From the NCBI GenBank assembly GCA_034440635.1, contig JAOTON010001570.1, forward strand, positions 1 to 64,000: a stretch of 64,000 bases of DNA, read 5' to 3'. The notes under the pieces are model-generated. The model did not search any database and was not told where the DNA came from. It saw only the letters and a list, made by a program, of their open reading frames with translations. The DNA is from Lepas anatifera (taxonomy: Eukaryota; Arthropoda; Thecostraca; Lepadidae). Made by a program: the position numbers and the translations under genes. Of the stretch, positions 13,711 through 63,976 are shown piece after piece (positions within the stretch are counted from its first letter, which is position 1; each line of letters opens with the position of its first letter).

Positions 13711-16461
13711 GAAGGGATATTTAAATTAATTACGACAATGTTTCACTTGGTTTCACCAGTTTGTGAACGGCAGATGCTTCATTATCATTCTGAGCTCAGG
13801 CGAATCCGGAAATGATTTTTTCTTCTTAAAACAGATTACTAGGCACCGATAAAATCGACCAGAAGTGGTCTGCATTTTCAAAGGAACACGGTCGCCTCCA
13901 CTGTGTGATTCAAGACTGCTGACATTGTGCGATTGGACATACACATAAGCGTTGTCTCGTTCTCTACGAAACCAAGGACCCTCAAAGCCGAGACCAGTAC
14001 TGCCTTCTCTGATCAAATAGAACTTGGGTTCCAATCAGGCCTACCTTCGCTCTATGTTGTTTTCCAGGCCTCCCTGGAGACAAAATGGAAATGAATTACA
14101 TACAAGAGTGGAGCAGGAATTGGTGCGTGAAAAGTGGCCAACTCTGTGGGCTGCAGCCAAAGCAAATCTGAGGTTGACTCACTTGATTCATCGAGAAAAT
14201 TAGTACTATTGTTTCCTTCGTTTTTTTATTGTCTCAAGTAAGGCCCATGGGCAAACGGGTCAAATTATCGCCGGAGAACACTTTGTGATTGCATTTCATA
14301 AAATATTTTATTCAAAAAATTTCTGCGGCAAGACAGGGTCTTTAAATATAAGGCATGAAGCTCAGGAACCAATGTTAAGAAGGAACTAAGCGTTGCAAAC
14401 AGACTTGTTGAGCCGTGGGTCTGATTCGGCGTTGTTTCTGACTCAAAGCCTTTTTTCTTTTATTCCGACTTGAGTCGGCTCACTTCAGAAACTTTGGCGA
14501 TTTAGAGTCGACTCACCAGCTTGACAGGATGAATTGAGTCAGAAACAGAGCTGGCCGCTGATCCGAAATTTAGAGCTGAGCTATCAACGTGCCTGGTGGA
14601 AAGTTAACGATGAAACCCTTTACAAGCGTCCGGGACTCACTTTTCAGGAGACTTACAATTTGAAATGGAATGATCTCTAACATAAGAAGTTAATCGGCTT
14701 GCAAATTAAGTCCAATCGCTTAAGAATATGTGTTGCACCTTCAGGCATCAACTTCTCTATAGCTGAAGCTGACATTTGCGAAATTTCAATTACAGCGACC
14801 TTTATCAGAAGCAATACCCTAATGTCTAAAAAAACTCTTTGAAAATTGCATCAGAATATACAGCCACAAACACAAACTTAAATCTTAGATAGCTTACCAA
14901 CTAATGCGCAGTCTTAGCAAATGATATTATGCTCTGTTTGCATGTTCCAACCACGCATCCTTCTACCAGAGTAGAATATTTCACCGACTTTGCTGTAGCA
15001 ATACATATCAGTGTACACCGTACAGTCCACGGAGGATTTATGATAAGCTAAATCATATATTCGCGTAATTTCGTACGACGGAACCTTTCCACGAAGCGAG
15101 AAATTTTTAGCCGCACGTGAGTTGAGTCGGAAGCGTAAGAGATTACAGAAAATCGAAACGCTGTATGTCTTATAGTTCCAGCAGTTTTTAAAACTGCAAT
15201 CGGGATGCGATATCCTCCTGGCGCACTATTTCCGCAGATCTGGCGCCTGTGTCTGCCGTACCATCAGAGCGGTGGGGAGCAGACGAACGGCAACAGACTC
15301 ATACCACGCAGCGATAGCTTATGGCCATTGGTGGGCGGTAGGCCATACTGCACTGCCGGGTATTTCTAGTGGGCATTCGATGCGTTCGGGAGAGGTACTG
15401 TTGACAGTAAATAATCTAGAACGCACAGTTAGTATTATCGAAACGAAAGCACCGCGTTGCGATTCTTTCCGAACCGTCGATTTCCAGCGGGACTGCTGTT
15501 GGTGATTAGAGAGAGAGCTGGAGCAGCGAGGACGGCAGCTGGACCAGAGAGTCGTCGACGGCGGAACGGTGCTGGGTGCCCGGCGATGGGAACAACCAGG
15601 CTCCGAACAGCTTCAGACGCTCCACCGAGCCTGCCAAAGGTCAGTGGTCTCCGGCACGTGCAGATGATGCGATACACACAGAAACATCACACAGAAACGA
15701 CACAGACTGCACTCCACGTGAGATGTCAGCCTTACTTCGCACATGCAGTTCAACCTTGCTAGCCAAAGTGGGAGTTTAGGGCAGTCGATGGCTTATCATT
15801 GCCAAAGTTCTGCCGGAACGGCACGTCACCTGGTTTCCGTTCTCACCATAGATTGTGGGCTTCCGTGTTCCGATTGGCCCGGTGAATATCTTTAGACAGG
15901 CCCTTTAGTTTAAGCCCCTGTCCCCCCTGGGTGGACTTCTAGCACGCTAGGATGGAAATGGGAGGCATTAAAACTGCAGCTCGCGATGGGAAATATCCAG
16001 GGATAAAAAACAAAGTCTGCCATTTGATTTATGAAACGAGCGACTGGTAAAAATTATTCAAATGCTTCAGTTGACTTCGTTGCCTTATAATTTTTCACGC
16101 TCAATTCTTTACTCGAAATGCAGAAGAAACAAAAACACTTTAGAACTAGGCCATAGCGGTCCGGACCATCTAATGTGTCGGTAAAGTGATGTGTTTGCTG
16201 GGATGGTCTGGCAGCAGGTCTCTAGGGAAATCTATCCTCCCGCACCGAACTGACCACTGAGCTAGCCACGTAACCTCAATAAATGAAAACAGAAAAAATA
16301 ATCGGGGCATTTAACCATGTTCAGATCCTGGATAAAAACAGTCCAGGAAGCTAGCCTGAAAACGTTTGAGATCGTGGCAATCGGAAATGGATTCCAGGAC
16401 CAAAACAGAGCCGTTCGTTTGGTGTCAGAATCGAAACAGCCGAAGCAGCGCACGTTTCTCA
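13711..16461. other. No gene identified; 3' flank of Hog gene
   Basis: Apart from a GC-rich patch at about 15440-15660 with short overlapping frames, I see no exon. The region lies just 3' of the Hog gene. If that gene has a further exon, such as a sterol-recognition segment, it should be here on the minus strand. I looked for an exon in the right phase and did not find a convincing one. Confidence 0.45.
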
Positions 16462-16667
16462 TCAGTGAGCGGCCGCTCTGGCCCGCCTACCTCTGGGGCC
16501 GTCGTCGTTGCCGTCGGCGAGACCGTCCAGCGCCTGGAACAGCGTCGGCAGCCAGCGGAGCGGTGTCGTCAGCGCGTGCGACCAGTCGTGATCGAACGAC
16601 GCGTAGCAGGAGGCCAGAACGCCGTCCACCACGATTGTGCCCTCCGCTGTCAGCGGCACGTAAGCGC
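16462..16667 (-). CDS. Hog gene exon 7: Hint C-terminal end
   Basis: After a C-rich acceptor (CCCCCAG) the frame reads AYVPLTAEGTIVVDGVLASC then YASFDHDW, almost the hedgehog consensus (APLT.EGTI.V..V.ASCYA). The Cys of ASCYA is the conserved late Hint cysteine. Reading through gives a stop after RRARAAAH at 16462. Alternatively a donor AGAG/GTAGGC at 16490-16489 could lead to another exon with the sterol-recognition helices (GIHWY.. in hedgehogs). I found no such exon. The plus-strand frame at 16317-16970 is a shadow. Confidence 0.88.
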
Positions 16668-19600
16668 CTGGGGGCGCGCCGGGTCAGAGAGGTCACAGCG
16701 CACAGTCGGGGGAGGGATCACCAATCTTTGGCCATTGCCGTGTTCAGGCTGTGTGCAGATGTTTGTCTGTTACCTGAAGTGGAAAATATGAGGCAATCTT
16801 TAAGAATGGCATCACATAGTTTTTCTATTAAATGCACTGGCTCTAAAAGGCTGAAAGATGTCTTTGCTCGCGTAAGACTATTGACCGTGTGGCATGGCAC
16901 ACGTCAGAGGCCCTTCAGGGCTGCTTTGATCTTTCATGCAAACAGCGCTGACATTCCCGCTAGTGCATAAAGGTTTGCTAGCGAATTTTTCATGAAGGTT
17001 TAGTCCCTACAGCGGGGTGACCATTGAGCCGATTACGCCACAATCTAGACTATCCCTCATTAAGAGCCAGCTCTAATACATTAGTGGCCAATTACATCAC
17101 GGATTTTCAATGATAGCGAACATTTGTTGTAGGGCTTGCTTCGGGTTGCGAGAAGCTTGTTTTAAAATGCAAGTTCTTAGCAAACACCCTAGCGTCGTCA
17201 TTGGAATAAGCCTTTTGTGTACAGAACGTTTCATCGTAGAGCAGACCTCTCTCCGATAAACTTCCGGATGCCCTTTCACCCACCATGCAGCCTACGCCTA
17301 TAAACAATAGCCATAGCCGAGCATTGCAGCTCATTCTTTATGATGATTCGTGCTGAACCTGCTGCTACCCGCCTCCCGGAAATGTCAGCCGCGCAGGCAT
17401 TTTCCTAGCTGAACTTCAAAGTTAAGGGTCAGATCAGACATCGCCCCCGCAGCGCACGTGTCTGTGGTAATGAGGGCGTCAGAAATAGGGCTGGCCTTTC
17501 AGAGACAACTCCCTACGGCGCTGCCGCTGTGTTTATGATGATATTTCAACATCTAGCTTTGATGGTTTTGCCTTTATCATAATATAAGATAGCGTTTCGT
17601 CCATTTTGATCACAAGTTTCACTTTAATACGCCTCGCTCTCTCACTCTCTGGCTCTGGCTCTGGCTCTGGCTCTCTCTCTCTCTCATATGTGTGCATGTA
17701 TAAGGGTTTGTGTACACACGCCTGTGGCGCGTCGCTGTTTGCGTATCACGCGTGTGTTCACCCACCAGTGCCGAGAAGATGACGCACTGCCACAACAGGA
17801 GACCAGAGCTCCTGATGGGCCGAGGTAGCCACCTTGAGGACGTCTCCGATGTGCACGTCTCCGGCGAAGCTGCAGCAATTCCAAAGGTATGGGGACTCCA
17901 CGGCTTCAAGTGCTGACTGGATAGGAATTTAAGGAGCAATAACTTTTTCATCGCAAGACTTCGGCACTCACAAGCAATGAGAGATTTAAAGGACAATCTG
18001 CTAGAGTGGATTTCTCTGTTTTAAGGTACGTGCGCAGCTACATCAAGTGTCTTGGAAGCTCCAAGTAGAAATAGCAGATAGAGAGAATGCCAAAGTTTTG
18101 GAGGTCCGTAAAATATACAAGCGTGGCCACCATTGAAAAGTGGGAGGTCAGCCAATCAAACCTGCTGCTAACAAAAATCTTTAACCTCTGTAGTCAACAC
18201 CTCGCCCGATTGGGCTCATTATTTGCTGCTATGCTAGCTGCTTTCACAACTTTCCGCTTCCTTTCCAGTTTGATGGAAGTCTGGAAATGTTTATGATAAG
18301 CGGAGGGGCCAGGTCCCTTGGGCGCTGTTCCGACATGTACGCTAGATTAAAACAAGGCTCACATGATTAACCGGCACAATCCTTCATCACTGAGAGGGCT
18401 AGTTTTTTCGGTCAACAAATGAGTAACTAGAATTATGCGTAACTAGAATTTCGCAAACACATCTAAGAATGACAAAGATAGGAGAGGACCATTAAGCAGC
18501 ACCACTGACCGTGAGACGAGTTGGTCCCCCTCTCTGACGAGCATCACATGGTTGGAGGAGAGTTGGACCCTCTGTCCAGCCTGCACCTGCACCTCCAGGT
18601 AGGCTGTGGTGTCGTTGGACCGCTTATCCAGCCACATCACCACCGGACTGAATACAAGCTGGCCAGAGCGGCGAGCTACCGCAGAGGAGACGTCGTCAAG
18701 GACGGAGCGGGCATGGCACAGTCATGTTGAAACGAGATGAAGAGGGAGATAAAAGATTAAGGTCAAATAATTGCATAACAGTGGTTGTTAGATATTAACA
18801 CTTAAACCAACACAGCAGGCAGATTGGCGTTTCGACAAAATTGTCTTTTCAGCATCTATGGTAGGAGGGATAGGAACCCGTCATCAAGACATGAGCGTTT
18901 TATCGTTTGGTTTTTGTGAAATTAGCGTGCAACAGAACTGTTTTTCACCAAAAATTATATCAAAAATTAAAATTTTGACAAAAACCAAGCGATGAAACTG
19001 CTGCATGTCTTGATGACGGGTCCTTATCCCTCCACCATAGATGCTAATTTTGTAAACGCGTTCTCGTGTTTTTAAGTATTAAGGTCAAAATAAAATTAGC
19101 GAACTCAGAAGCAGGATGATACTCGTGAGTTTTCTACAAAGATCTGCTGGTCTCGTGTTCTGACGATGTAATAGTATCATGGGTCGATCCCAGATTTCCG
19201 ATTGAGGGAAGTACATGGTCGGGGGTGCATGGTTTGGGGGATGCCATCCGGAGTAGGGGTCGACACTTTTGGACTACAAAACCTATCGTGTGGGCGTCAA
19301 ATCTTGGGGCAGGGGTGTCGATAAGATGTGGGGCATTCATCTAGGTGGCAAGCACAATTTCAGGTGGCACCATCGACCTTTCAGGGACGCCGTGGCCATT
19401 TCAGGGCGCACCGAGGGTGCATCGGGAGGGGATGGGGCAAGTGCGCTCACATTCCCCCTGAATCCCCCTATGAATGGTGTCGCTCTACAGGGCTGACTGG
19501 CCTCACCTGCTAGCACCCGGTCCTGCAGTCGAAGCTCCGACATGCTGATGACGTCACCAGACTCCTTTAGAACCTGGCCACTTCCTGCCAGCAGACACCA

Positions 19601-21273
19601 CAATCTGTCAGTGGCAGCTCCGACATTCTGATGACGTCACCAGACTCCCTCAGAACCTGGCCACTTCCTGCCAGCAGACAACACAGTCCGTCAGTGGCTG
19701 AAAAGCTCATCCCTGCGTGTTTCTTGATGCCATGAACAGTGCATTTTTCTCAGATCAACGGAGAGAAATATAAATATCCCATTTGGGGCATATTTGATTG
19801 CGGCAGTAATAAGCGTTGTTAGCGGATAAAAGTGAGAGGCCAGTAATTCACTGTTTTGTATGCGTGCTGCTGGCAAGAAGTTCTCTAAAAGCAAAAAAAC
19901 TCGTCGATTCTGGCTCATTGCTGTACTCCGCACTGGCTGGTTACAAAGTCTTTCGATTTATTTCCGGTTTGTCTGAAGTTAGGATATTTTTAGATGGAAA
20001 GTTGGGAATCAGGTCCCCTCCCCCCCTCCTCTGCTATTCTCTCATATATACCGACAGCACAAAAACCATGTGTTCATTTTAAAAGTATGGTAATATGTGA
20101 CCACGCCACGAACCGCGTCCACAGAGCGACACTGACTGTTAAAGCTGTCTCCAACTCAAATTCTGACATAAATGTATAATATCTTTACTGCTACTTACGA
20201 TTACGACAAATCACAGGGAGGGACACTAAGATGCCAGGCTAACAAGGTTCCCAGTCGACGTGGAACCGGCGGAGTGCAACAGCGCTGCGGACCGCCGCGC
20301 TGACCAGTGACTCCACGCGGAGCATGACCTGCGCTTTCTGGGATTGGTCAGCACACATCGGGAAAAATACGCATAAATCCAGCCAATCGCATAGCCGGAC
20401 GAAAGGACTGTCGGTCGGCAGAAAATATTTTTGATTATTTTTGCGGTTGTTCCCGAATATTTCAACTATAGGAGATACCAGTACAGTTGTGCTGTTTATC
20501 TGAGCAATTGATTTCTATTTTTCGAGACCACTTTAACTTTTTCAAAAGCGCATGCAAAAAAACTGACAGAACGCATCTATAGGTGATGTTTAAGTTTTTG
20601 CCAAATTTAAGAAACTTCCAGAACTTTTATATTTTTAGAGCCACAAGTCCTTCAGACTACCTTGTCAACCTGCACTATTGTGAGCAACGGGCAAATAGAG
20701 CGAATAAGAACAAATGGAAGCGATGTGCTTTTATTCCTACTTAAGTTTCTAGTCGGGTGATAGTTATATTAGTCGCGTATTCCAACATCAAGCGGCCCGT
20801 GTAGCTCGGGGCTGAGAATAAGGGCTAGGTGTAGCCCGGGACTTGGGCGTTTTAATCTTGTTTAATAGGTCTAGCTATCGGTGGAAGCTAGGCGCTTAAA
20901 TGCAAAATAAGGCTACGAGGCTCTAATTCAACAGTAGGATTATTTGTATTTTTGTGCTCTCTTCGTTGGCTAGATCCACGATCCACGGACAATTATCATT
21001 CTTTGACTCGATATTAAATAATAAGGGCTTCATAAAGGTGGGTGTAGCTAACACGCATGCATAAATCACCAAATTATCTAGTCCTACATTTTCTTGAGTG
21101 GTTTCACCACATCAAAATTAATTTAATTGTCTTTTTGGTTTTATTCTCTCACCGGCAGCTTTTCTGATGTTGCAATCCTTTTTGCTCTTTTTTAGCCCAG
21201 ATTAAGTCATTTTCTATTGTTGCGCTGACATTAGGGAGTAAACCGCAGAGAGCAGAGCCCCCTCTCTCTCTCT

Positions 21274-21304
<31 letters not shown>

Positions 21305-22728
21305 CCTGGTGTGCCTATCAAACACTTTTTACGTCCGAGTCACCCACCCGATGAGTTTATTTGCATCCGCCACTGAGATCTGGATTATCGTGCGTGGCAT
21401 GCAGTCACACATTATGCAAATTTATACAGTTGATTCCCGAGAGGGTGAACAAAAGTCTGGAGAAGGAAATTCAAGTAGGCTAAAATAAAGAAGTTGAAGA
21501 GGAAAAATATGTTACCTACAGAGAAATGTTTATTTTAATGCTGTACGACACTGGTTAGTAGCAGCAGTTTTTGGAGGTAAGCTGTATATATGCATAGCTT
21601 CCGAAATTAAAGGCTGAACCTGAATTCAGAGAATAGATACCAACGGCTTTGTTGCTATCTGCTGAATGAAATCAGCCAAATGATTCAGCTCATACAGCCC
21701 TGTTTCATCCTGTTTTATAAGCGTTGCCTCCACCCAGCAGTCTTCTTATCTTCTGCGTCTCCCAGAGTTAAGGAGACACTTCAGCGGCGGGCACGCACCA
21801 GCCGCACATAACCAGCATTTTCACAACAGCTGGGCCCCGGGCCGCTGCTGGCTGAGCCCTTGAGCCGCAGCCTGAGTGGTATTGATCCCCACAGCGCAAA
21901 CTTCAGACAGATATTGCCGCGGGCTATCGGAGTCGAAATTCCGCACCACGCCCTCATCGCTCCCAGCACCTTCAAACGGCCACGGAATCTGGCCTTTTGC
22001 CACTAGACTGCAAATAAAGCAGCAGCGACAACCGCACCTGGGCCCCCGGGGATTCCACGCGACGGTCCGGCGGTAGTGTACATACACCGCACAGTGCCAA
22101 TATGGCGCAGCGCTGCTGTGCTACGTTGTGATGTTATCGTTTCATGTAGCAAGCTTATTACAGACGGGGAAATAATTTCATTGGCTTAAAAACTATGTTT
22201 TCCAGAGTAAATTTAATTAGCAGCGAAAACAGACAAAAGCAAATAAGGAAAATGTTCGGTTCGTGTAGCATTTTTCACCTTACGCGTTGCTTAACTTTTG
22301 AATTGGTGTTTGTTGAAACTTGCAATTTTGGATATCGGTCAAAAAAGCCTTGACGTTATATCTTGACAGTATTTGATTCTTGCGATGTTACAAACTACAC
22401 TTTCTTCTACAGCTACTGGTGAAGAGAGACGTGCAGTGGCAAAGATTTCAAACTTGACCAGGTGGCTTAACCTTAAACTTAAGTTAAAACTTAAGCCAAT
22501 TTTTTTTTCTAAACGTAAATCAAACACACTAATACTACACTCAAGTAGTGGAAGCAGCAATATACCAGCGATTGTATTGGAAATTCCTATGGCTTGTAGG
22601 TATAAGGCGGTGCAACAGCCCTTGTAGACAGAAGCCGTAACAGCTCTACTGTTTCTTTTTGAGGTGTTGTAAAGTAAGGTAGAAATAATATTGTCGCATG
22701 AATATTCAATGAATCGAAACAGGGACAA

Positions 22729-22763
<35 letters not shown>

Positions 22764-25700
22764 GAGAGAGAAAATTGTTTAGGAAATTGAGATATCCCAT
22801 CGGTGACTTTATCATCGCAGTGCACAGCTCAAAGTGGGAATACTGGTTTACCTTCGAACATATCAGAAGCTTAAAATATTTGCAGTGGTATAATATTTAG
22901 TTCGCATGTACGGGAGGTAGCAAAAATTAAAAGTGGTTTATTAAGACGCAGCTCTTTGTAAATAAATTTTAAAATTTTCGAAAGATATCATCGATGCTCA
23001 AAAGCGTGGTCTCCGTGGACTTCTATCCTTCTGTTCTGGTACAGAACTAAGTATAGCCACACAAACAAAGAGGACCAACTCCTCAAGCCGTAATGAATTA
23101 CCCTTAGTGATGGAATCTTCTTTGGCTTTTCTAGAAATGTTATATAAAATGGTTGTACAGGGAACAAGCGGCGGCCGCGGTGCTGGTGTTGAGCTAACTT
23201 GGGTCTAGGGGCTCAAGACGTCAGATTTTCAGAATCAGAATTCCTGTATTCAAAATAATTTTCCCTCCTGCGCTTCACGGCCATCATACTTGGTATAGCT
23301 TATTCTTAATTAACTGCACAAGCTTTAAAAAGAAAATTGGGTCATCTTAGGATGTGAGGTCAAGATCAAGGTCATCTGGTAAAGTGTGTAGTTTTTCACT
23401 GTTTTTTTTCAATTGGTCAGGTGTTTCAAAAATCGTAAAACATTCTGAGACTTTGTCAACTAGCGGACAACCAATCAGCTTCATTGACCACTCACCTGGA
23501 AAGCAGCCGGGCGGTTTCCCACAGGTTCCGCAGAACTCCGACTTCATACGCTTGCTGTAGTACAGGCACTTGCCCTGAGCGTAACAGTTCCCTGCGCCCT
23601 TCCGCACCTGCAGTTTCCCACGCTTTAAATCATTCACCAGCCCAACCGATAATACTAGCGTAAATGAGAGAAAGGCATAGCCAGGAGATGGCTCATGTTT
23701 AAATGGGATACAATCTTTGCTGAGGTTAATGACACGGAAATCATCAAAATTGACGTAGGACCAAAATTTACAGAAGCAGAAAATATCCCTTGAAACAAGC
23801 CCAGTATCGCAAAGATTCATGTGTCATTTCCCTGCACAACTAGAAGCTGAGAAGACTGACGCGTAAGATGTAAACTATTCGCCTAAGACTGACGAGACAT
23901 GTCCATGCAGCGCTAGTTCAGGCTGCCGTCCGCTGCTCTGCGGAGTGCCCCGCCATGACAAACACCAGCAGTGCTTACCCTGGCCATGAGAGTGCGAGCA
24001 GCGTCGATATCGCTGGCGGGGTAATCGTCGGCGTAGTCCACGCCGCCGGCGAAAGGTCCCAGTTCTGTAGGCACACCTGCGTCAGTGCCGCCGCCCACCC
24101 GCTGCTCTATGCAATCTCCGGCGGCCGAGTCGGACACGCGACCCGGCCGTCGGCGCCGTACGTGCAAGCAGCCGTACGTCTGTTTGGGTTTCAGTCAGTG
24201 TTTCTCAGTCTGGTGCTAGTGCTAACCCTACAGCTACTCTTGAAAATCGGCTCTGTTGAATGAACTTTCTTTAATTACATTGCCGACTTGATTTCATGCT
24301 GCTCGTTTTTATTATTATTACGTGACTTGATTTCTTCTGGAGGAAACAGTCATTTGAGCGGTGAGACAATCCCAGGTCCATTCTTCATTTGAAAAAAGAA
24401 AACCTAAGCATCAGATCTGCATCTTCCCATTGACTCTAACGAGAGGAGATGCATGTATGTTCAAGTCGAGAGGGGACTACTTGCAAAGTTCGAGAGGGAT
24501 AAGCCTGCTTTCAGGACTAGGTTTGTGGGCAATGTAAGCAATTGTCTACGAAAAATTATTGACGTACATTTCAAGCCCCATAGTCTATGATCAAGAACTG
24601 GATGAGGGAGAGGGGGAGAGGCAAGACAAATTTAAGCAAACCGACTGAAATCGTAATAGATTCACCCTCTAATGAAAAAAACAGCCAGTTGGAACACCAC
24701 GTTCGGACAGCCTCACCCAAATTGTAAGACTCCCGACCAGAGGGGTTAGGGTATATCTGCGCTTCCCTCCCTCCACGCTCCCATTACCACGTCCGCCCCT
24801 GCTAGCACACGCGTGTGTTTTAGTAATCGATTCTCACGTCTCCTGCGCAGTATTTGTGCCCACATTATGAAGAGTTATGATTACTAGGCATCGTAACGGA
24901 AGCGTGAATGAGAGTTGGTGGAGGTAGAGCCGGCAGTGGTTGGATATCATCGCTTTCGTTTCCGGCATTCAAAGCAAGGCTGTTTGGGCTGAAGCCGGTT
25001 GGAGGATTTAAGTTTTCCCGGAAAAGGGTTTTAAAGAGCATTGATGTTATGCGGGCTCTGTGTCACGTATTTTTCAGCACTAAAAATATGTTATAAAATT
25101 TACAAATGCTAGGAAGCGACAAGTATTATGCAGTATGTGTGTTTTTCATCTTTATTTAGTTTTTGTTTATTTATTCTGGTCAACAAAGCGTATGTCACGA
25201 CTGACTGCAACACATCTAGGTCTGGAAATAATTTTTTTCTCCCAAATTATGGTAGTGGATAGTCCTAATTTGACAGCTCCATGATTTTACCATGCGTGAA
25301 ATTTGTGTGTTAGGACTTTGAAGATGCAAATAAATACAGGCGGATATGGTTTAGTATGATAATATACCACTCCATGCAATGAAATTTTTGAACAGCTCTT
25401 GGAAACCTATTTAGGCTCAGATAGGGGCTAGCAAATTTTTCAGAACCTTAATATTTCTTAATAATAACAATAGGTGGAATCCAGCTTGTTCTGCTTAAAA
25501 AATGTGACAAGGATAAGAGTGTGACCACAGTGAGACACAATGAAGAAGGAGAGGTGAATTTGATACGGGTGTAAAAAATAAGAGACAGATTCTGTAGCGT
25601 CGGGGGTATTTTACCAGCTCTGTTCTTTACTTCGGGAAGTCGGTCGCTAGATCTGTCAGATTTGGTGCAAAGGTGCGGACCTGAAAGCCTGAGCATGCGG

Positions 25701-28700
25701 CTGCCTACTAAAAACGGGAGCATGCGACTGCTTATTAAAAACGGGAGCATGCGACTGCTTATTAAAAACGGGAGCATGCGACTGCTTATTAAAAACGGGA
25801 GCATGCGACTGCTTATTAAAAACGGGAGCATGCGACTGCTTATTAAGAACGGGAGCATGCGAATGCCTCCTAAAAACATGGAATAATATCTCTATTCCAT
25901 GGCTAAAAACGGGAGCACGCAATTGGCTACTAAAAACGGGAGCGCGCAATTGGCTACTAAAAACGGGAGCATGCAGCTGCCTGCTAAAAACGCGGGAGCA
26001 TGCGGATGCCTACTAAGAACGGGAGCACGCAGTTGGCTACTAAAAACGGGAGCATGCAACTGGCTACTAAAAACGGGAGCATGAGGCTGCTTATTAAAAA
26101 CGGGAGCATGCGGCTGCTTATTAAAAACGGGAGCATGTGACTGCCTGCAAAAACATGGAATAATATATCTATTCCATGGCTAAAAAACGGGAGCACGCAA
26201 TTGGCTACTAAAAACGGGAGCATGCAACTGGCTACTAAAAACGGAAGCATGAGGCTGCTTATTAACACGCGCATTGACGGGGGCCTGAGCCACCTTCGCA
26301 TTGACGGGGGCGGGTACTCGCCCCCCTAAGATCTCGAGAACCACGGTAGGTAGCAAAAAACGGTAAACGGCGTTGGGCTGCCCATCCACTTCTCCATCGA
26401 AAATATTTGTACCATTTTTTTGTCAGGTCACATTTAAGGTCACGAGAGGTCAAAACATGCCCGTCATAGGGATAACATGTAAATTCAGTTTTTCGGCCAT
26501 TACATCTGAACAAGTACAGATAGAGCAAAACGACTTGAACTGTATGAATCCTCTTAGCAAGCCGAATCGAATGATATATAATTTGACCTTGCTAGGTCAA
26601 ATCAAGGATTTGAGCTGACCTGAGGTCAGGTCAGGGTCAAATTATACAAAATTCATATCATTAGAACCGCAAAGCCCAGGCGAGTCTAATGCAGCTAAAA
26701 TAAATGCTCTATCACCATCCGTTACTGAGTTATTCCGTAAAAACCATTTTTCCCATGTATTTCCAATGGAGAGGTCATGCCTCGTACCTGACCTTAGGTC
26801 ATCGATATCAAAAATACCGGAACATATTTTAGAGAACTCGGTGGGACCATTATGTGATATGAGTTTCAATCGGATAAGTTCACCCTGCTTCGACTTATGC
26901 TATCTTAAACTTTTTTGAGGTCGGGTCGCTTGACCTGTACTGGTGACCTGACCTGAGATGACCTAACCTTAACATTTTCACAGAAGCTGTAAAAATGATG
27001 AGGGTAAAGGTATACCAAGTACGGCGGCGCTACGCACCGCCGTTTTTCTACTGTCTCCGAAAAACCCGAGGGGGCGGGTACCCACCCCCCGTCAATGCGC
27101 GTGTTAAAAACGGGAGCATGCGGCTGCTTATTAAAAACGGGAGCATGCGGCTGCCTACTAAAAACGGGAGCATGCGGCTGCTTATTAAGAACGGGAGCAT
27201 GTGACTGCCTGCAAAAAACATGGAATAATATCTCTATTCCATGGCTAAAAACGGGAGCACGCAATTGGCTACTAAAAACGGGAGCACGCAATTGGCTACT
27301 AAAAACGGGAGCATGCGGCTGGCTACTAAAAATGGGAGCATGCGGCTGCCTAGTAAAAAACGGGAGCGCTTTCAGTGGGAGTGGGCATTCCACTAATAAG
27401 GTTTGTAAATATTGTATTTCTAATCCTGTAATGGGCGAGGTAATAAACAATTTGCCGATCATTAAACACATAGTGAATTTAAAAAGCAAACTGCCAGAAT
27501 TACAGGCTTGCAAGCCCCTATTATTTCATCAATTTCTACTTTCATCTCTTGAAAGGGGCTTTATGGTAGATAAAGATAGGCTGCGTATCCCATACGCGGT
27601 TTCTGGCAAACTAACTTTATTTAATCTTATTCATTTTTCTCTCTCACACACTTTTTTAAATTTATTTATACCACATCGTATACCGCATCGTATGTGTGCA
27701 TGGCCACCTACTCGCTGCTCTGACCCGCCTGCGCCTGCCCCTGGCCTGCTGGACCGTGGGGCATCGGTACCACCATGTGCGTTTTCTTACCTCGTCATCT
27801 TTTTTACCTCATATGCCCGTTTTGTAACCCATGTGTATTGTGTGCTTCTGTTTCTGAATATATACATGGATGTAAAGCAAGCTCTATGACGCTTGGTAAA
27901 ATACTTTTACTTATTTACATAAAAATGTCGAGGCAAACTGTTCCAGACCTAATAAGCAGGTCAAATGTTTAGTTTTGGTGTTAACGGACAAGCGAATCTG
28001 AAAACCAGTGTAATAACTATTAGTGGAAAGATTAACAAATTCAGCGGATTAGTAATTGGCAGAGAAATGAAACACTCGCCGACGCGCAGGTTTAGTTTTG
28101 AGGTTAATCGGTTCCGCAGCCCGAGCAAAAGAACTTCACTAGGGCTCACATTTACAGCCTAACATACCATCTATTCACGTGGTCTTCGAGTTTCTGAGCA
28201 TGCGCTGCGGAAGGTTACCAGACAGTGACAGTATGCAAGTAAAGCCTTCGTCCTCTTGAGCAGGTAATGTGTGACGGCATGACTTATTTGGATGTTTTGG
28301 TGGATACGTCTTCTTTTCGTCATCTTTTGAACGAGGATAAGCATAAACAAGTCCATTAAGAAACGAGCGTGAATAAATCAACTAAAACACGTAGAACAGG
28401 TATTTTGGATGATGCAAATAGACAAAAGTAGAAGCCACTAGAACAGAAAGGTATTTTACCAATGCAGTATTGCCGAGGACGAACTTTTATAACAGTGAGA
28501 ATGACACAAGTGTTCTTGGAATCGACGCGGCACCAGCATGTCGCAGCTCAGCTGTAGGAAATCGTCGGATGAAATGAACGAGCCCGCAGCTAGCATTTCA
28601 TGAACAATGATAAAGTGAGGTATGCAATTTACAGCACGAAATCACGCCAGGGATTTGGCGCTAAGGCTGCACCTGGCCGAAGGTCATTGGCCTTTATCGG

Positions 28701-29919
28701 ATTTAATGAGTGACAATTGGCTTAGTAGATCATCTTTGTAGCGTCATTTATTTTCTTTGTACCAGTATTGTCACTGAGTTGTTGGGTATGAACAAAGTAG
28801 CAGTAATAAAACAAGACTCGGAAATGCCATTGTCCCCATGCATGCACCACCATAAATTTCAAGTAAACTTCAGGGAACATGCATTGCCATGCAGTCTAGG
28901 GCTGCCACTTTGAAAATCATGCATTTAATGGACATACATAGAGTTTGCTTGTGATATGAGTAACGCGATACCACAATGTATTCTCCGACAAAGAAAAATT
29001 ACATGAATAGCTCGACTGGTGGTGAACCCATCCCTTTCACTCGTTGGTGACCCATGTTTGTAATATTTGTTGAGATAAATATTGACTATTTAAATCTGGA
29101 GTGTGATGCGGGGCCTATAACATTAGTTTCAAATGCATGAAGCTATCCTGCGTCATCACCAGCAAGCCAGGCGCTTATGTTTCCAAATCGGCGCTGAGTA
29201 CCAATAGTGGGACAAAGCCGAAGTTTTGGGCGCCCTGACTCCACGAATTCTGATGGCTTGAACTTCAGGCTTATTGGAATTCTGGGCAGCGCCACCGGTC
29301 TGAAAGCTATGGAAACAACTTTTGTCGACCTGCCAGTGATGGCAAGGGGCTTTTGATTGGATCCTGAGACTTCATTCAGTGTACGTGCCCAGGCAAGGTG
29401 GCAATAAGCAGCACTATTAAGCAGGAGACCAGTTGAAACAATACCAAAATAAGCCCTCTGTAGCTTCTGAAGTTACAGCTTTGGATACAAAAATACTATT
29501 GAAACTGAATGAAACAAAAAGTGCACTCAAAATATTGCTACGAGACACATGTTAAGGCAAAGTCACTCACGGTAAAATGTTAACAAATAAAAAATATGTA
29601 TAGATGTAGCAAGGGAAAATCGTGAGGAACAAGACTTTTAACATCATCTATCTGAAAGTTACAGCAAATAAAATAAATTAAACACGTTAAAAGTGAGATC
29701 TTTCAACAAGGTTTCCTTTTTGTGATGGTATTTTGTGTCTTTTTACAAAATGACCATCAACAAGCATATATTTTCAGTGGGTCGGAACCAGTTTTTCCCT
29801 GTCTCCGCAGTCACATACTGCCTTGTTTCTTTTTGCATCGAAGCTTATTTGAGTTCTCTCTCTCCCTCTGCTTCTTTCCCTCTATTATTTCCTTCTCACT
29901 CCTTTTCCGCAACCCTCCA

Positions 29920-29950
<31 letters not shown>

Positions 29951-30086
29951 ATCTACATCCTTCTCTTTCCCTCCTCTCCTACTTGCCTCTCTCCCTGTGT
30001 AGGTCAGCCAGCAGTTCGTCCAAGTTGACCTCCGCTGAGAGGCAGAGCACCGCCCCCAGAGACAAGGTCAGAACAGCCCGCAGCAT
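16462..30086 (-). CDS. Hedgehog-type Hog/Hint autoprocessing protein, 7-exon gene model
   Basis: The exons are 29987-30086, 23979-24106, 23496-23607, 19507-19584, 18510-18675, 17766-17869 and 16462-16667. Their lengths sum to 894 bp, that is 297 residues plus a stop, and every junction is in phase. Predicted order: signal peptide (about 1-18), N-terminal part to residue 110 with cysteines spaced C-x5-C-x11-C-x2-C, then the Hint domain from C111. In hedgehog proteins the Hint domain cuts the chain before this Cys and links the N-terminal fragment to a sterol. Here CFPG, the Asp of WLDK (156), His182, and the Cys of ASCYA (250) match the known catalytic positions; the TxxH Thr is Ser179. The N-terminal part does not resemble the hedgehog signalling domain, so this is probably a hedgehog-related Hog gene, possibly akin to the family called Lophohog. 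Exons 3-7 are secure; exons 1-2 are inferred. Confidence 0.8.
17636..17690. repeat. CT/CTCTGG microsatellite in Hog intron 6
   Basis: (CT)n with an embedded run of the 6-bp unit GGCTCT, about 75 bp downstream of the exon 6 donor on the transcribed strand, where it reads as GA-rich. Confidence 0.85.
17766..17869 (-). CDS. Hog gene exon 6: Hint continuation
   Basis: A 104-bp exon with acceptor TTGCTGCAG and donor ACTG/GTGGGT. It encodes FAGDVHIGDVLKV followed by ELWSPVVAVRHLLGTG, matching the hedgehog Hint segment F...I..G..V.V.......L....V..V. Phases 2 in and 1 out fit exons 5 and 7. Two longer overlapping frames in other registers, at 17619-17996 and 17684-17884, are shadows. Confidence 0.88.
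18510..18675 (-). CDS. Hog gene exon 5: Hint core
   Basis: Acceptor GCGGTAG, donor CACG/GTCAGT, phase 1 in and phase 2 out. It encodes GQLVFSPVVMWLDKR, then a strand ending in LSSNHVMLV. Hedgehog Hint domains have ..G.LVYS..L.FLD.. and ..LT..HL..V at these places. The Asp of WLDK and the His of SSNH correspond to the residues required for sterol transfer and for thioester formation. The usual Thr of T-x-x-H is Ser here, a conservative change. The join with exon 4 gives DRVLAARRSGQLVFS without a gap. Confidence 0.9.
18849..19047. mobile_element. Inverted-repeat MITE in Hog intron 4
   Basis: Two arms of about 70 bp face each other. The left starts AGCATCTATGGTAGGAGGGA; the right, read on the minus strand, starts AGCATCTATGGTGGAGGGA. 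Both continue with CCCGTCATCAAGACATG and end near TTGGTTTTTGT. The arms differ at roughly one base in ten. The short centre is AT-rich. No target duplication is clear. Confidence 0.8.
19507..19584 (-). CDS. Hog gene exon 4: start of Hint domain
   Basis: A 78-bp exon with acceptor CTGGCAG and donor AG/GTGAGG, phase 1 at both ends. It encodes SGQVLKESGDVISMSELRLQ then DRVLA, matching the hedgehog Hint N-terminus where a G..V pattern is followed by LR.GDRVLA. It completes CFPG from exon 3. The exon and its acceptor are partly duplicated just upstream, at 19616-19699; see the repeat entry. Confidence 0.88.
19533..19699. repeat. 83-bp tandem duplication of the Hog exon 4 start
   Basis: Copy 1 (19533-19615) holds the 5' two thirds of exon 4 with its acceptor. 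Copy 2 (19616-19699) repeats it upstream on the transcribed strand, with an intact acceptor at 19668-19669 and GSGQVLRESGDVIRMSEL coding potential. Copy 2 has no donor. Because 83 is not a multiple of three, using its acceptor and reading on hits a stop inside copy 1. Copy 2 is therefore a duplicated decoy acceptor or dead exon. Confidence 0.88.
21258..21305. repeat. (CT)n microsatellite
   Basis: Pure and near-pure CT repeats with short C runs, inside Hog intron 3. Confidence 0.9.
22728..22775. repeat. (GA)n microsatellite
   Basis: Near-perfect (GA)n run in Hog intron 3. The overlapping frames owe their RERER and SLSLS stretches to it. Confidence 0.9.
23496..23607 (-). CDS. Hog gene exon 3: four-Cys module and autocleavage site
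   Basis: Bounded by a CTGCAG acceptor and a strong CAG/GTGAGT donor (phase 1). It encodes NCYAQGKCLYYSKRMKSEFC followed by GTCGKPPG and CFP. The cysteines lie at C-x5-C-x11-C-x2-C. The second half loosely recalls the end of ShK-type cysteine motifs (a Met eight residues before a C..CG pair), but the spacing differs and I do not assign that family. G/CFPG is the hedgehog autocleavage signature; the Cys is the thioester nucleophile. The donor splits the Gly codon exactly where exon 4 resumes. Confidence 0.85.
23979..24106 (-). CDS. Hog gene exon 2
   Basis: This exon encodes an acidic, glycine-rich linker with VDYADDYPASDIDAARTLMA near its end, and finishes at AGG/GTAAGC in phase 0, which fits the phase-0 start of exon 3. 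The 5' limit is uncertain. The acceptor GCATAG at 24107-24108 gives phase 1 and joins exon 1 in frame. A second acceptor five bases downstream (start 24101) would be phase 0 and would not fit exon 1. The stretch before the acceptor is only weakly pyrimidine-rich. No known domain is recognised. Confidence 0.6.
24107..25694. other. Part of Hog intron 1, no exon seen
   Basis: AT-rich sequence between the tentative exon 2 and the 27-bp minisatellite. No coding block with splice sites was recognised. Confidence 0.5.
25695..26261. repeat. 27-bp minisatellite with hairpin-bearing higher-order unit
   Basis: Tandem units of AAAAACGGGAGCATGCG plus a 10-bp variable part (GACTGCTTATT, GCAATTGGCTACT and others). 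The 27-bp length keeps all frames open, which explains the long repetitive frames on both strands. At about 25873 and 26152 units are interrupted by a palindromic block, CATGGAATA..TATTCCATG, giving a higher-order repeat. Most units contain TTAA, the target of the element inserted next to it. Confidence 0.95.
26262..27107. mobile_element. TTAA element A (non-autonomous), inserted in the minisatellite
   Basis: 846 bp including flanking TTAA. The left end is TTAACACGCGCATTGACGGG; the right end read inward is the same 20 bases. Subterminal GGGTAC palindromes occur at both ends. The left end contains a second copy of GCATTGACGGGGG after the spacer GAGCCACCTTC. The interior is full of AGGTCA/TGACCT half-sites and has no transposase. 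Removing the element and one TTAA restores a normal 27-bp unit (GCTTATTAAAAACGGGAG). TTAA duplication is the signature of piggyBac-type transposition; the family name is an inference. Confidence 0.88.
27108..27366. repeat. 27-bp minisatellite, second block
   Basis: Continuation of the array at 25695-26261 after the TTAA element, including a third copy of the hairpin block at about 27218. It breaks off near 27366 in CGGGAGCGCTTTC. Confidence 0.95.
27367..29914. other. Part of Hog intron 1, no exon seen
   Basis: No recognised exon. The frame continuing out of the minisatellite to 27889 contains a stretch after 27370 (with KVCKYCISNPVMGEVINNLP) that looks less repetitive, but I recognise no domain and find no supporting splice sites. 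Confidence 0.4.
29915..29960. repeat. (CT)n microsatellite
   Basis: Pyrimidine tract on the plus strand, so GA-rich in the Hog transcript. It starts about 30 bp inside intron 1. Confidence 0.9.
29987..30086 (-). CDS. Hog gene exon 1: signal peptide (tentative)
   Basis: The frame begins MLRAVLTLSLGAVLCLSAEV, a short basic start, a hydrophobic core and a small-residue cleavage region typical of a secretory signal. It then reads through LDELLADLHRER and stops two codons later unless spliced. The only good donor is a GC type, G/GCAAGT, at 29986-29985, which leaves phase 1. That is the phase the next exon needs. A GA-rich tract follows inside the intron. Assignment to the Hog gene rests on strand, order, phase and the need for a secretion signal; the link across 5.9 kb is inferred. 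It could instead be the first exon of another secreted protein. Confidence 0.55.
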
Positions 30087-50016: not shown

Positions 50017-53000
50017 CTGCGGGAGTGAATACACAGCTGCGAAGCCTGGCTCCATGTTTGGGTGGAGGCACGAGTGACCAAAGTGAGACGCTTCTTTCGC
50101 GCCGAACTGAGTCGGCGGCACCGACTGCCCTGCCTCACCGCCTATAAAAGGCGGCAATATTGACTGTGGGCGAGAGTTCGAAGCCCCGTTGACGGGGCAG
50201 GCAGTAAAGACCGACAGTCTCATCTGAGAAAAGACCAGTCCAGCCTCGCGTCGCCACGCTGGCAGGGGTCCCCAGGCGGCGGCCGTCACTACCAATTGCC
50301 GACACACGGGACAAAACAACGTCCTCAGCCATACCGCAGCTCGGGTAAATACACCACTGACCACCGCACTACTGCCATCTACCGAGCAACGACGAAGCTC
50401 AAGTGCCAGACAGGCGCCAGGGTCGCTCGTTTCACCTCTGCGTGCGGCGGCAGCCACTTACCTGGGGTCCGGTGTAGTAGCGGAAGAATATAGAGCCGCC
50501 GCGTTTGAGCTGGTTTCCAGCGCGGAGGTCGCTCCAGCAATCTACCCACGAGCTGTAGACCGGCATGAAGGGAGGCGATCCCGCCGCCAACCTGCGCAGA
50601 CCGCGCCGAAGGCTGGTTATACCACCGCGACGGCCAACCGTCGCAAGCCAACACGTCAAGTCCCGTAAACGGTCGCAAGCGGACACTTAAACCAGCAGTA
50701 TTCTACCGTACAAAGGAAAAGTAGATGGCCAATGAGGAATGCCTTTTATGCAGAGCAACATCACTATTGGTCACAAACCGGTAACCTTAACAATCTGTTC
50801 GTACTCATTCTAATAGAAAATGGCATACAGTGTTCTCGTTGACTCTAAGATATAACCATTCATTCACTATTTGGGTTTCATGGCGTGCCCCCCATTTTGT
50901 TCATACAGCACTCATTAAACTTTCACCAATATCACACCTAAAAATGACACGACTGTGTGTATACATGCACCGTGACGTAAGGAGTCATGACTCCGGGTCA
51001 CATTTACATACACCATGTATACCAAACGAAAGTGTGGTGATTTAAATATAGCTGAAGTGTTACTGCATGTAATGATGTGTGCGAGCGTGTGTGCACGGTG
51101 CAATGTGTGTTTACCTCTAGATGATGCTAAGGACAATTTGTATCGCTATAAATAAACACATACATACATGCATATAATAAATGTTATCACCAGCATCACA
51201 CGGAGCCCGAGACAACGGAGCAGATCTACACTTGCCCGGAGCCCGAGCAGATCTACACTTGCCCGGAGCCCGAGCAGGTTACACTTACCCAGAGCCTGAG
51301 CGGAGCAGGTTACACTTACCCGGAGCCGGACGGAGCATGTTACACTTACCCGGAGCCCGAGCAGATCTACACTTACCCGGAGCCCGAGCAGGTTACACTT
51401 ACCCGAAGCCCGAGCCGGTTACACTTACCCAAAGCCCGAGCCGGTTACACTTACCCAAAGCCCGAGCCGGTTACACTTACCCGGAGCCCGAGCAGGTTAC
51501 ACTTACCCGGAGCCCGGAGCAGGTTACACTTACCCGGAGCCCGAGCAGGTTACACTTACCCGGAGCCCGAGCAGGTTACACTTACCCGGAGCCCGAGCAG
51601 GTTACACTTACCCGGAGCCTGAGAAACGGACAGGTTAAACTTACCCAGCCTGAGCACGGAGCAGGTTACACTTACCCGGAGCCGGCACGGGCAGGTTACA
51701 CTTACCCGGAGCCCGAGCAGGTTACACTTACCCGGAGCTCGAACAGGTTACACTTACCCAGAGCCTGAGACGGCGGAGCAGGCAGCCACGACGTGGAAGG
51801 GATACATGAGCGCTGAGCCGACGTAGGCCATGGTGGAGGCGGTGTAGCTCTTGAGGTCGCGGTCCTCCACCACGTAGTTGTTGACGACAAAGGTGAGGCT
51901 AGCCACCAGCAGTGCTGACAGCAGGTCCCCCAGCAGACGCGGCACCAGACCGGAGAAGAAGCCTAGTACACCGTTCTCCCGGTAGATGGCAGACAGCGAG
52001 GACATGACGCCGCTGAAGGCCGTGGAGGGAGAGCGAATACGGTGTTAGAGAGGCGATTCGACTGGTGACGTCTTGAAATTGAACCGTTTTCTAATTGGAG
52101 AAGATTAAACATTCCGTGAAGGGAGGAAGAGGTGGACGGGCCAACATTAAGTTGTGAGCGAACTACGTTAGGTTCGCCAACATTAAGTTGTGAGCGAAGG
52201 ACGTTAGAAAGCAGAGGTCATTCCCAATGTGTCGTTGTGTATTGGAAAGAATTTGAAAAATCACACTTTATATCTTGGTAATGCGTTGTTGTAAGTCCAG
52301 ATTTTACAGACCGGTGCATTAACAGTCAGTATCTATCATATTTGTTTGTAAGAAAACTGCAACGCTAGAAGACAGTTCTTGTCTGGAGTGTTGCCAACCG
52401 TGGATCAGCACCACTGCTGATCTGTGACGCGTGACGCGTACTGCTGCTGCTGAGGCAGTACGCGTGCTCTCGGTATATTCATTGCAAACAATACATGGCA
52501 ATAGAAAAATACAACCCCAAAATCAGCACGGCCATCTCACAGAGCGAAAGCAAGAATACGAATCTCCTGCTGTCTAATGAGACGCCTTTCCTTCAGGGGG
52601 CGTTTGATGACTGTGGGCAGTCAGCACCCTCTCACACCACTCCATGCATCTGCTCCCTGGCCCGAGCTCATTTCCAGCACCCACCGACGCAACAATCTGC
52701 CAGAGCACGGGATCTACCTCAAAGCTGGCACGTCCAAAACCCAATCTCAACAGAGGGGCCGGCTGCGCTGACCTGTACTGCGTCTCCTGGCCTACGAACT
52801 GTGCCACGGTGCGGGTCTTCACCACGAAGAGCGGCTGGGTCAGTACGATGCAGGCCAGCCGGCCGCCCAGGTCACGCAGCGTGGACATCATGAAGAGAGA
52901 GCGCACCTCCTCCTCGCTGAGGTCCTCCTCCCTCTTCCGCCGCAGCCGGTCCTCCTCCTGACAGAGCGGGGCGTCTCACTGGTCGGTCCCACCAATGGTA

Positions 53001-61859: not shown

Positions 61860-62905
61860 GTGGCGCACCAGTAGCGCCACCCAGCACTAGTGCCACCTGC
61901 CGGGCACAGCAACACCACCCAGCGGCCTCAGCAGCACCGCCCAGTGGTCACAACAGCGCCACCCCAGCAGCCACAGCGGTTCCACCCGCGGCCGTCCCCA
62001 CAGCACACCGGGCGGCACACGTTCCCAGCCTCCACCACAGCCTCGCGACACCGGGGATTGGTCCAGAGCCGGCTCAGTGGTACCTCATCAGCAACACAAA
62101 GGCCAAGCCGCACTGGCACACCTGGAAGGCCAGGCACCAGACTCAAGAAAGCACCACCAGGCTGAGGTCAGTGGGACCGGCAGGCGCGCACAACACTACC
62201 GAACCTCAACAGTCCCCATTGGGCCGGGCCAGCAGTTCCAGCAGGCATCAGGAGGCCGATACCACAGGAGCCGCCCAGCCGGAAGGCGCCGCCATCCTCG
62301 AGGCCCAGCAGGCGGCGCAGAACCGATCCCACGCCGACAGATGAAGACCGCCCCGGTCAAAGGCGCCATCGCCCCAACCCCACCACAGGAGAAGTCAGCC
62401 TCCGCAGACCAGCGACTGGGACAACGCCAGGTCCAGAGGACCACCGGCAACAGCAACCAGCAGGCGAGGGAAGACGGGCTCCAACGCATCTCATGTCGAG
62501 CGGCCGCCACGATAGAGGTCCCCACCTCTCCAAGGAGAGCGGGGCGGCGAGCTGCTGGCAGTAGGGCAGCGAGTCCAGGTGCAGACGGCAGGCAAGCCAG
62601 CGGTGACCCAAGACGACCGTCATCAGGTGGAGAGACGGCCACAGCGCAGCGTCGGCATCGCGACTCTCCTCGAGGTCGCATGGCGAGAACCCCGACAACG
62701 GCAGCTCCCAGTCGGGGTCCCGTCCGCCGCAGGCTCCACTGGGCCCAGAGGACCACCAGTAGCAGTCAAGCGAGGAAGACAGGCTCCCACTTTTCTAAAA
62801 TCGAGCAACCATCACGATTGAGGTCCCCGCCTGCCCACAGAGAGCGGGGTGGCGAATTGCTGGCAGAATGGCAGCAAGTCCCGGGAGCAGAGGCTGGCAG
62901 ATGGG
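61860..62905. repeat. GC-rich block with about 310-bp internal duplication
   Basis: Very GC-rich. Sequence from about 62432 (CCAGAGGACCACCGGCA) to 62600 recurs diverged at about 62743-62905, including GAGAGCGGGG.GGCGA..TGCTGGCAG. Long open frames on both strands (291, 186 and 113 codons) are biased in composition and unrecognised. I treat this as a repeat and not a gene. Confidence 0.6.
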
Positions 62906-62948
62906 TGGTGCCACCCATTGCAATTAATTGTATTTCCTGTAATGTTTA

Positions 62949-63976
62949 TTAACACACGCTCCGCTGGGGGGCGAAATTCGGCCCCCTCCCAGTTTTTCAC
63001 AGATGACGCAAAAACGAAAAGGCGCAGGAGAACGAAACTTACTGTACCTTATCCCTGATCAATTTTACGCATCTGACCACATTTTTTAGGTCAATTCATG
63101 TCAGGTCAAGGAGCTATTCAAGGTCAAGTGACCAGACCTCAAAACCCAAAATCACGAGTTTGAAGCAGTGCCTAAGGAACATCAATCAACCAATCATTTT
63201 CAAACTTTCACCATATGATACGGTCATTAAGGTCTACAAATCTGCTATCTCGGAAGTTTGAAATTGTTGACCTAAGGTGGGGTCAATATTTTGGTCACCC
63301 TATTATAAGTCTATGGTGAAAAATAGGGCTCGTTTTTAGTAAAAAGTGGGTAGATAAAGCGGAAAATTCTCAAACCGTGTATTCCGTGTATTCTTGCAAC
63401 AATCTTGACCTTATAGTTGAGTTTTTAACCATCTGACCTCTCAAAGTAGGTCATGTCAGGTCACAGGAACATACAGTGATTGTTTTGCCAATAACTTCTC
63501 ACTGGATTGAGATAAAGGTCCAATTTTGCTTGCATTGTGCTTATATTGTCACGGGGAGTCGATTGATATGCAACATGGCCATACCAGGTCACCATGTGAA
63601 CTTGACCTAGCTCAATTTGAGCTCATTTTCAAAATTTGACCTAGCTAGGTCATATTATACATCATTTGATTTGCCACGATGAGAAGAATCCAATGATGCA
63701 TGACATTTTCAGCTTCACTGAGTAAAAATCTAGAGGGGTAAACGTACACCACCTTGTTGTAAGCCTATGGAACCTTCTTTGGCCTTTGCTGACTTCAATA
63801 TTGACCTTGACATTAAAATACTTTGTATAATTTCTCTTCGTCTCGTCAAGAGCTTTCGAATGTCCTCCTTAATTTTCCTTTAGCTGTCCTGGGAAATGAG
63901 ATACGGAGGGAGGACGAGAAACGCCCCCCCCCAGTGGGGTGCATCATGCCAGGGACCCCAGCAGGGACCGTGTTAA
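62949..63976 (+). mobile_element. TTAA element D
   Basis: 1028 bp between TTAA at 62949 and 63973. The left end is TTAACACACGCTCCGCTGGG, followed by GGGGCGAAATTCGGCCCC. The right end, read inward, is TTAACACGGTCCCTGCTGGG. The interior is rich in AGGTCA/TGACCT (for example 63090-63125 and 63560-63650), like elements A-C. No protein. Confidence 0.7.

Follow-up and report, generated by a model that had tools for sequence, protein, structure and literature searches.

Barnacle proteins predicted to join a four-cysteine module to a hedgehog-type Hog domain

We analysed a stretch of 64,000 nucleotides from the barnacle Lepas anatifera (the window). On its minus strand lies a gene, here called member A, whose eight exons run from 30086 to 15506 and span 14.6 kb. 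Reading phases agree throughout, and the predicted protein is 319 aa long. All introns are of the GT-AG type, except that the donor of exon 1 is GC. The predicted protein consists, in this order, of a signal peptide, a linker, a four-Cys module, the CFPG sequence and a complete Hog domain. Of its seven Cys, four belong to the module and one to the signal peptide; the other two are the nucleophile C101 and C240.

Exon 1 (29987..30086) holds the start codon, the putative signal peptide MLRAVLTLSLGAVLCLSA, which was assigned by eye, and the start of the linker. Exon 2 (23979..24076) continues the linker and ends in LMAR. Exon 3 (23496..23607) encodes the four-Cys module (VRKGAGNCYAQGKCLYYSKRMKSEFCGTCGKPPG) together with the CFP at the cleavage site, and exon 4 (19507..19584) the start of the Hint part (GSGQVLKESGDVISMSELRLQDRVLA). 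The Hint part continues through exon 5 (18510..18675), with the Asp equivalent to D303 of fly Hh (D146) and the SxxH motif (S169, H172), and through exon 6 (17766..17869). It ends in exon 7 (16491..16667), which also contains ASCYA (C240). The adduct-recognition region is shared between exon 7, with its first half, and exon 8 (15506..15630), with its conserved end and the stop codon. In a tblastn comparison of six family proteins with the window, exons 1, 3, 4, 5, 6, 7, and 8 were matched with best E values of 3e-6 or lower. These were 6e-21, 1e-6, 8e-23, 4e-7, 1e-24, and 2e-9 for exons 3 to 8, respectively, whereas exon 1 was matched by only one of the six queries (P0001, 50% identity over 40 aa, E 2.7e-6). 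Exon 2 was not matched in this comparison. It uses the sole donor of intron 1 that yields the M-x-R end of the family in the right phase, and it has four possible acceptors, so that its acceptor position is less sure; no such exon end with a GTRAG donor arose in 30 shuffles.

A preliminary description of this DNA had proposed seven exons. All seven do lie on the minus strand and agree in phase, and exons 3–7 do carry the Hint domain, but exon 8 had been missed; it was found because five relatives share a conserved tail. The last exon had been extended to a stop at 16462, giving a first model of 287 aa. That stop proved to be intronic, and exon 7 ends at 16491 with the donor CCAGAG/gtaggc.

An 83-base tandem duplication (19526..19698, minus strand; 79 of 87 bases identical) comprises the exon 4 acceptor and the first ~60 bases of the exon. 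If the first acceptor copy is spliced, a stop follows and the protein is truncated. Given the duplicated acceptor, two products may arise from the locus, or it may be weakened. The duplication, together with the branch in the Hint tree, which is longer for the window protein (0.45) than for P0001 (0.11), makes it possible that this copy is weakened. The same two features and the GC donor could also be expected of an artefact that combines exons of different genes, or of a dying pseudogene at a disused locus. We consider this explanation very unlikely, as the eight exons are in frame and the same architecture recurs in relatives and at another locus of this genome. Chance is untenable for member A because other barnacles have proteins of this architecture and because that other locus has exons 3-6 of the same lengths.

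Two 27-base minisatellite arrays lie in intron 1 (25691-26265, ~21 copies; 27105-27367, ~10 copies), and a 26-base array of ~20 copies occupies 51218-51769. A 353-codon open frame at 61891-62949 had no Pfam match, and a long frame overlaps it on the other strand. None of ten large ORFs of the window matched Pfam at E 0.01, and neither Rfam nor ARAGORN yielded a match in the window.

The proteins closest to that of member A among 5.8 billion searched were P0001 (67% identity), a protein of Pollicipes pollicipes (63%), two proteins of Amphibalanus amphitrite (60 and 65%), and P0005 (49%). All five lack the Hedge domain. Within the best 120 of 231 matches, identity falls to 38% or less after these five, and the other named proteins are vertebrate hedgehogs; weaker arthropod relatives may stand beyond the best 120. 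The question had been raised earlier whether the gene belongs to Lophohog or to one of the nematode families. The named relatives point elsewhere, since Pollicipes and Amphibalanus are thoracican barnacles (Thoracica), and a lophotrochozoan origin was rejected on this ground. P0002, P0003, and P0004 are public barnacle proteins named after desert or Tiggy-winkle hedgehog ("desert hedgehog protein-like" in Pollicipes, "Tiggy-winkle hedgehog" in Amphibalanus), yet no Hedge domain was found in them. P0001 (321 residues, on a contig of 1431 bases) and P0005 (306 residues, on one of 1594 bases) are probably transcripts. Because the reading frames of both are uninterrupted, as opposed to the eight exons here, transcripts of the relatives probably join module and Hint. 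A further protein with the module, P0121, had no Pfam Hint match and reads past the exon 3 donor; as it leaves the family exactly at the CFPG donor, it can be read as an unspliced genomic frame. Judged by sequence, member A belongs to a barnacle Hog family that is also present in other barnacles.

The preliminary description had recognised a hedgehog-type Hint domain with a G/CFPG cleavage site, and both were confirmed. Pfam Hint matched the window protein at E 2.8e-40 (138.6 bits versus a cut-off of 29.7) and was also above the cut-off in all five of P0001-P0005. Only four PDB sequences were matched at E 0.001, all of them hedgehog entries, fly and sonic. The residue preceding the cut is Gly in four of the six family proteins, Ser in P0003, and Lys in P0005. 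Key positions reported for fly Hh in the available text of PMC9163320 are C258, D303, T326, H329, C400, and an HWY motif. Of these, C258, D303, H329, and C400 correspond to C101 (the nucleophile), D146, H172, and C240 of the window protein, and these four residues are conserved in 6/6 proteins. TxxH is replaced by SxxH in all six and also in paralog C, a conservative change in which the His is kept; the fly T326A mutant is described as greatly impaired (PMC9163320). HWY is replaced by GPRxxVE in 6/6 proteins, whereas the two true hh genes of the same genome retain it. The Hog domain has two Cys, the nucleophile and that of SCYA, in five of the six proteins and three in P0003. From SCYA onward, the tail aligns with that of 97 hedgehogs (hhalign 96%, 57 columns including the SCYA end).

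With these residues in place, cutting by the Hog domain of member A appears highly probable. In fly Hh, D303 is reported to be needed for full cholesterol transfer and not for DTT-driven cutting (PMC9163320, available text). As the Asp serving sterol transfer is kept in the barnacle proteins, we favour self-cutting with a lipid acceptor, and a lipid adduct on the member A peptide seems reasonably likely. Sterol as this adduct is less secure because the HWY of the sterol-recognition region is absent; we put its chances slightly below even. Alternatively, the protein might cut itself without a sterol, by hydrolysis or by transfer to another nucleophile, and release a soluble peptide. The loss of HWY and the T to S change in 6/6 proteins are consistent with this, as is the residue before the cut, which is not always Gly. 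On the other hand, the D303-equivalent Asp, with the role described in PMC9163320, is kept in 6/6 proteins and the family members have a conserved tail, and we regard cutting without a sterol as unlikely.

The four-Cys module is the best conserved part of the family proteins. That of member A (RVRKGAGNCYAQGKCLYYSKRMKSEFCGTCGKPPG) is identical to those of P0001-P0005 at 31/38, 31/38, 32/38, 26/37, and 30/38 positions, respectively, compared with 96, 82, 86, 79, and 55 of 130 positions for Hint. Its spacing is C-x3-G-x-C-x11-C-x2-C, the first gap being x5, and the C-x5-C-x11-C-x2-C given in the preliminary description is exact. Separate profile searches of the two parts of the protein, as had been proposed there, matched the Hint part to Pfam Hint and gave no significant Pfam match for the N-terminal part. 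Specifically, the N-terminal parts of six members, compared with the models of Pfam, yielded two non-significant matches (E 0.1 in one member and 0.19 in another); Pfam holds a Ground-like model. The module had no significant match among PDB sequences either, the search with the N-terminal profile giving a single chance match (RAD26, E 1). The structural model of the module (mean pLDDT 68.6, low confidence) has a short helix and a hairpin. Foldseek found no significant fold match for it, and the top match was an EGF/TGF-alpha chimera. In its C-x3-G-x-C and hairpin, the module resembles the inner part of the motif of EGF-type growth factors. An assignment as an EGF domain was rejected, as the module has four Cys rather than six and no Pfam or significant fold match. 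The AlphaFold whole-protein model of P0002 (pLDDT 43.7, low confidence) was used solely for its Hint part, which matches 1at0.

Basic residues flank the module. RVRK stands just ahead of it in 6/6 proteins, and the last module Cys is followed by a basic pair in P0001 and P0002 (CGRR), in P0003 (CGKR), and in P0004 and paralog B (CHRR). The protein could accordingly be imagined as a prohormone in which the module is trimmed at RVRK before and at GRR, GKR, or HRR after it, perhaps amidated, with Hog as a carrier only. However, the second basic site is not conserved: the window protein reads CGKPPG, without the basic pair of P0001-P0004, and P0005 reads CGTRQK. Such trimming would also remove a sterol, and a stand-alone module precursor was found in none of 2929 candidates of 0.55-1.75 times ~100 residues at E 10. 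We find processing of this kind improbable. Among proteins of 158-502 aa, all five candidates matched the module (P0001, P0002, P0003, P0005, and P0121); this search missed P0004, and its sensitivity is thus limited.

In the whole assembly (1.04 Gb, 2126 contigs; match counts are lower bounds), at least seven Hint matches were detected. Complete Hint exons lie on contigs C1269 and C1911, and the remaining five matches belong to the window gene (two), paralog B on C1577 (two), and paralog C on C1710 (one). HH_signal matches numbered at least four, and those found were on C1269 and C1911, two Hedge exons each, in an order and on a strand that match the Hint exon of the same contig. The Hedge exons of C1911 were also found by tblastn. 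Those of C1269 precede the Hint exon by 85 and 181 kb, with none inside the 45 kb first examined. We infer that the exons on each of the two contigs form one hh gene. The three coding exons found on C1269 (413277-595189) span ~182 kb. A search for the true hedgehog elsewhere in the genome, suggested at the outset, thus returned two hh genes. As for the possibility raised then that the window's Hint exons join a Hedge domain located elsewhere, the Hedge exons found are on two contigs other than the window's, and both of these contigs have a Hint exon of their own. On present sequence, the genome has two ordinary hedgehog genes and what appears to be a small family of module-Hog genes.

Paralog B was located from exon 2 to exon 8, the first exon being absent from the located set, and its module reads CYARGKCLYYSKRLKTEFCGDCHRRQG. 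The lengths of exons 3-6 (112, 78, 166, and 104) are identical in the window gene and paralog B. The last exon of paralog B (C1577, 1270051-1270178) departs from the family frame near its end, which is either an assembly error or a real shortening. Paralog C (C1710, about 1621.7-1624.4 kb) reads CEERGECTCYSAKTHAAFCCDCEWGSCFPAAALVTM and has four Cys at the family spacing plus two more, i.e., six in the module. Its start was not located; module and Hint start share one exon, and FLDRR and LSTNH are kept. Paralog C has SNYA where the family has SCYA, given which its lipid-transfer activity is possibly different or lost. Of 22 residues compared, it shares eight with A and ten with B, with mainly the cysteine frame kept. 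In a register chosen by tblastn, 0 of 20000 shuffles of C reached an equally good match to B. Module copies without Hint could exist in this genome. The paralogs may have some connection with the whole-genome duplication of barnacles, which is described in the available text of PMC11331182 together with an enrichment of the Hedgehog pathway among expanded barnacle gene families.

The absence of a Hedge domain from the N-terminal part, also stated in the preliminary description, was confirmed in several ways. At E 0.1, HH_signal was detected in neither the window protein nor P0001-P0005 (P0004 without its start), while the control P0006 was matched at 4.8e-87. A search of the window with 95 Hedge queries revealed no Hedge exon (best E 0.61). 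The N-terminal profile compared with 18 hedgehogs gave a probability of 0.6%, with the signal peptide alone aligned, and the module as a Hedge remnant is unsupported by this comparison. A Hint phylogeny, likewise envisaged from the beginning, was built from 23 rows, none of them nematode or Lophohog. It took in 12 non-family proteins from the best 120 of 231 matches, left out P0024 for its very long branch, and superseded an earlier tree of 18 rows from which P0072 (no CFPG) had been dropped. The tree is unrooted, and paralog C and fly Hh, the latter a partial sequence, have long branches. The eight Hog-family proteins formed one clade (100/99), Hog B grouped with Pollicipes (91/83), and barnacle Hh grouped with fly Hh (96/86); in this unrooted tree with long branches, the Hog clade was not nested in arthropod Hh. 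These data bear on the idea that the family arose from an hh duplicate whose Hedge domain was replaced or decayed, its N-terminal part degenerating into the module. A phmmer alignment does extend weakly over the Hedge end of sonic and fly hedgehog. The 18-hedgehog profile comparison and, long branches allowed for, the position of the Hog clade outside the hedgehogs both argue against such an origin, as does the Hint part, which is in one exon in the true hh genes of this genome and split over several in the Hog family. We consider it highly improbable.

Our main reading, to which we give a probability of roughly two in three, is that the product of member A is a secreted, self-cutting precursor from which a four-Cys peptide carrying a lipid is released. 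The secreted, cut, and lipid-modified ligand proposed earlier is therewith still plausible. The signal peptide would take the precursor into the secretory pathway, where the Hog domain would cut the chain ahead of Cys101. The N-terminal part, of ~82 residues with exactly four Cys, would be passed to a lipid nucleophile which, going by the kept catalytic residues, would probably be a sterol. The product would be a small, disulfide-bonded extracellular peptide tethered to membrane or matrix, with the module as its presumable working part. Hedgehog-type palmitoylation is not expected, because no Cys directly follows the presumed signal peptide. Barnacles are moulting, shell-building ecdysozoans, and this lifestyle would suit a peptide that is a component of cuticle, cement, or shell epithelium rather than a signal. 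Several nematode Hog-related proteins offer an analogy: in the available text of PMC11304992, cuticle matrix roles and perhaps signalling are described, and some of these relatives appear structural in precuticle and cuticle. We hold a matrix role to be possible, if on the unlikely side.

With Hedgehog, the barnacle proteins share a signal peptide, a secreted part before G/CFPG, and a Hog domain in which the C, D, and H of the catalytic site are present along with SCYA. They differ from it in lacking Hedge, the palmitate Cys after the signal peptide, and HWY, in having S for T in TxxH and introns inside Hog, and in coexisting with two hh genes. Unlike nematode Hog genes, the family lacks the nematode-type pair of Hog Cys (two Hog Cys in 5/6 proteins). 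Its N-terminal module has no significant Pfam match. The family resembles nematode Warthog, Groundhog, Quahog, and Xhog/Short-hog/Enop-hog in combining a lineage-specific secreted N-terminus, often with Cys, with a Hog domain and an altered adduct-recognition region (PMC2362128, available text). In Lophohog of molluscs and Capitella, which also stands outside hh proper, Hog is likewise joined to a unique N-terminal domain (PMC9695228, PMC5103448, available text). Lophohog is set apart here by taxon, the named relatives being barnacles. Hog with a lineage-specific, often Cys-bearing N-terminus is thus already known (available text of PMC2362128, PMC9695228, and PMC5103448). The architecture is of a known kind (Warthog, Quahog, Lophohog), and the proteins are already public under vertebrate hedgehog names. 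In the literature searched, whose coverage was partial, so that absence from print is not implied, we found no description of a four-Cys module with Hog or of an arthropod member. In the available text of PMC2362128, arthropods figure as one of the lineages in which hedgehog-related genes would have been lost.

Tentatively, barnacles may possess, alongside true hedgehog, an arthropod line of secreted peptides that carry a lipid, arise by hedgehog-type self-cleavage, and are built on a new four-Cys ligand module; the module is possibly an EGF-like hairpin ligand and the lipid possibly one other than cholesterol. The module-Hog family could be an unrecognised crustacean signal or surface protein. 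If this is true, arthropods too would carry proteins that use the hedgehog machinery for other cargo, hidden under vertebrate hedgehog names. The barnacle family would be a test case for Hog function without Hedge and without HWY, and it would offer a candidate for a signal at the surface or a matrix protein in a group of animals that is studied for settlement, shell, and cement.
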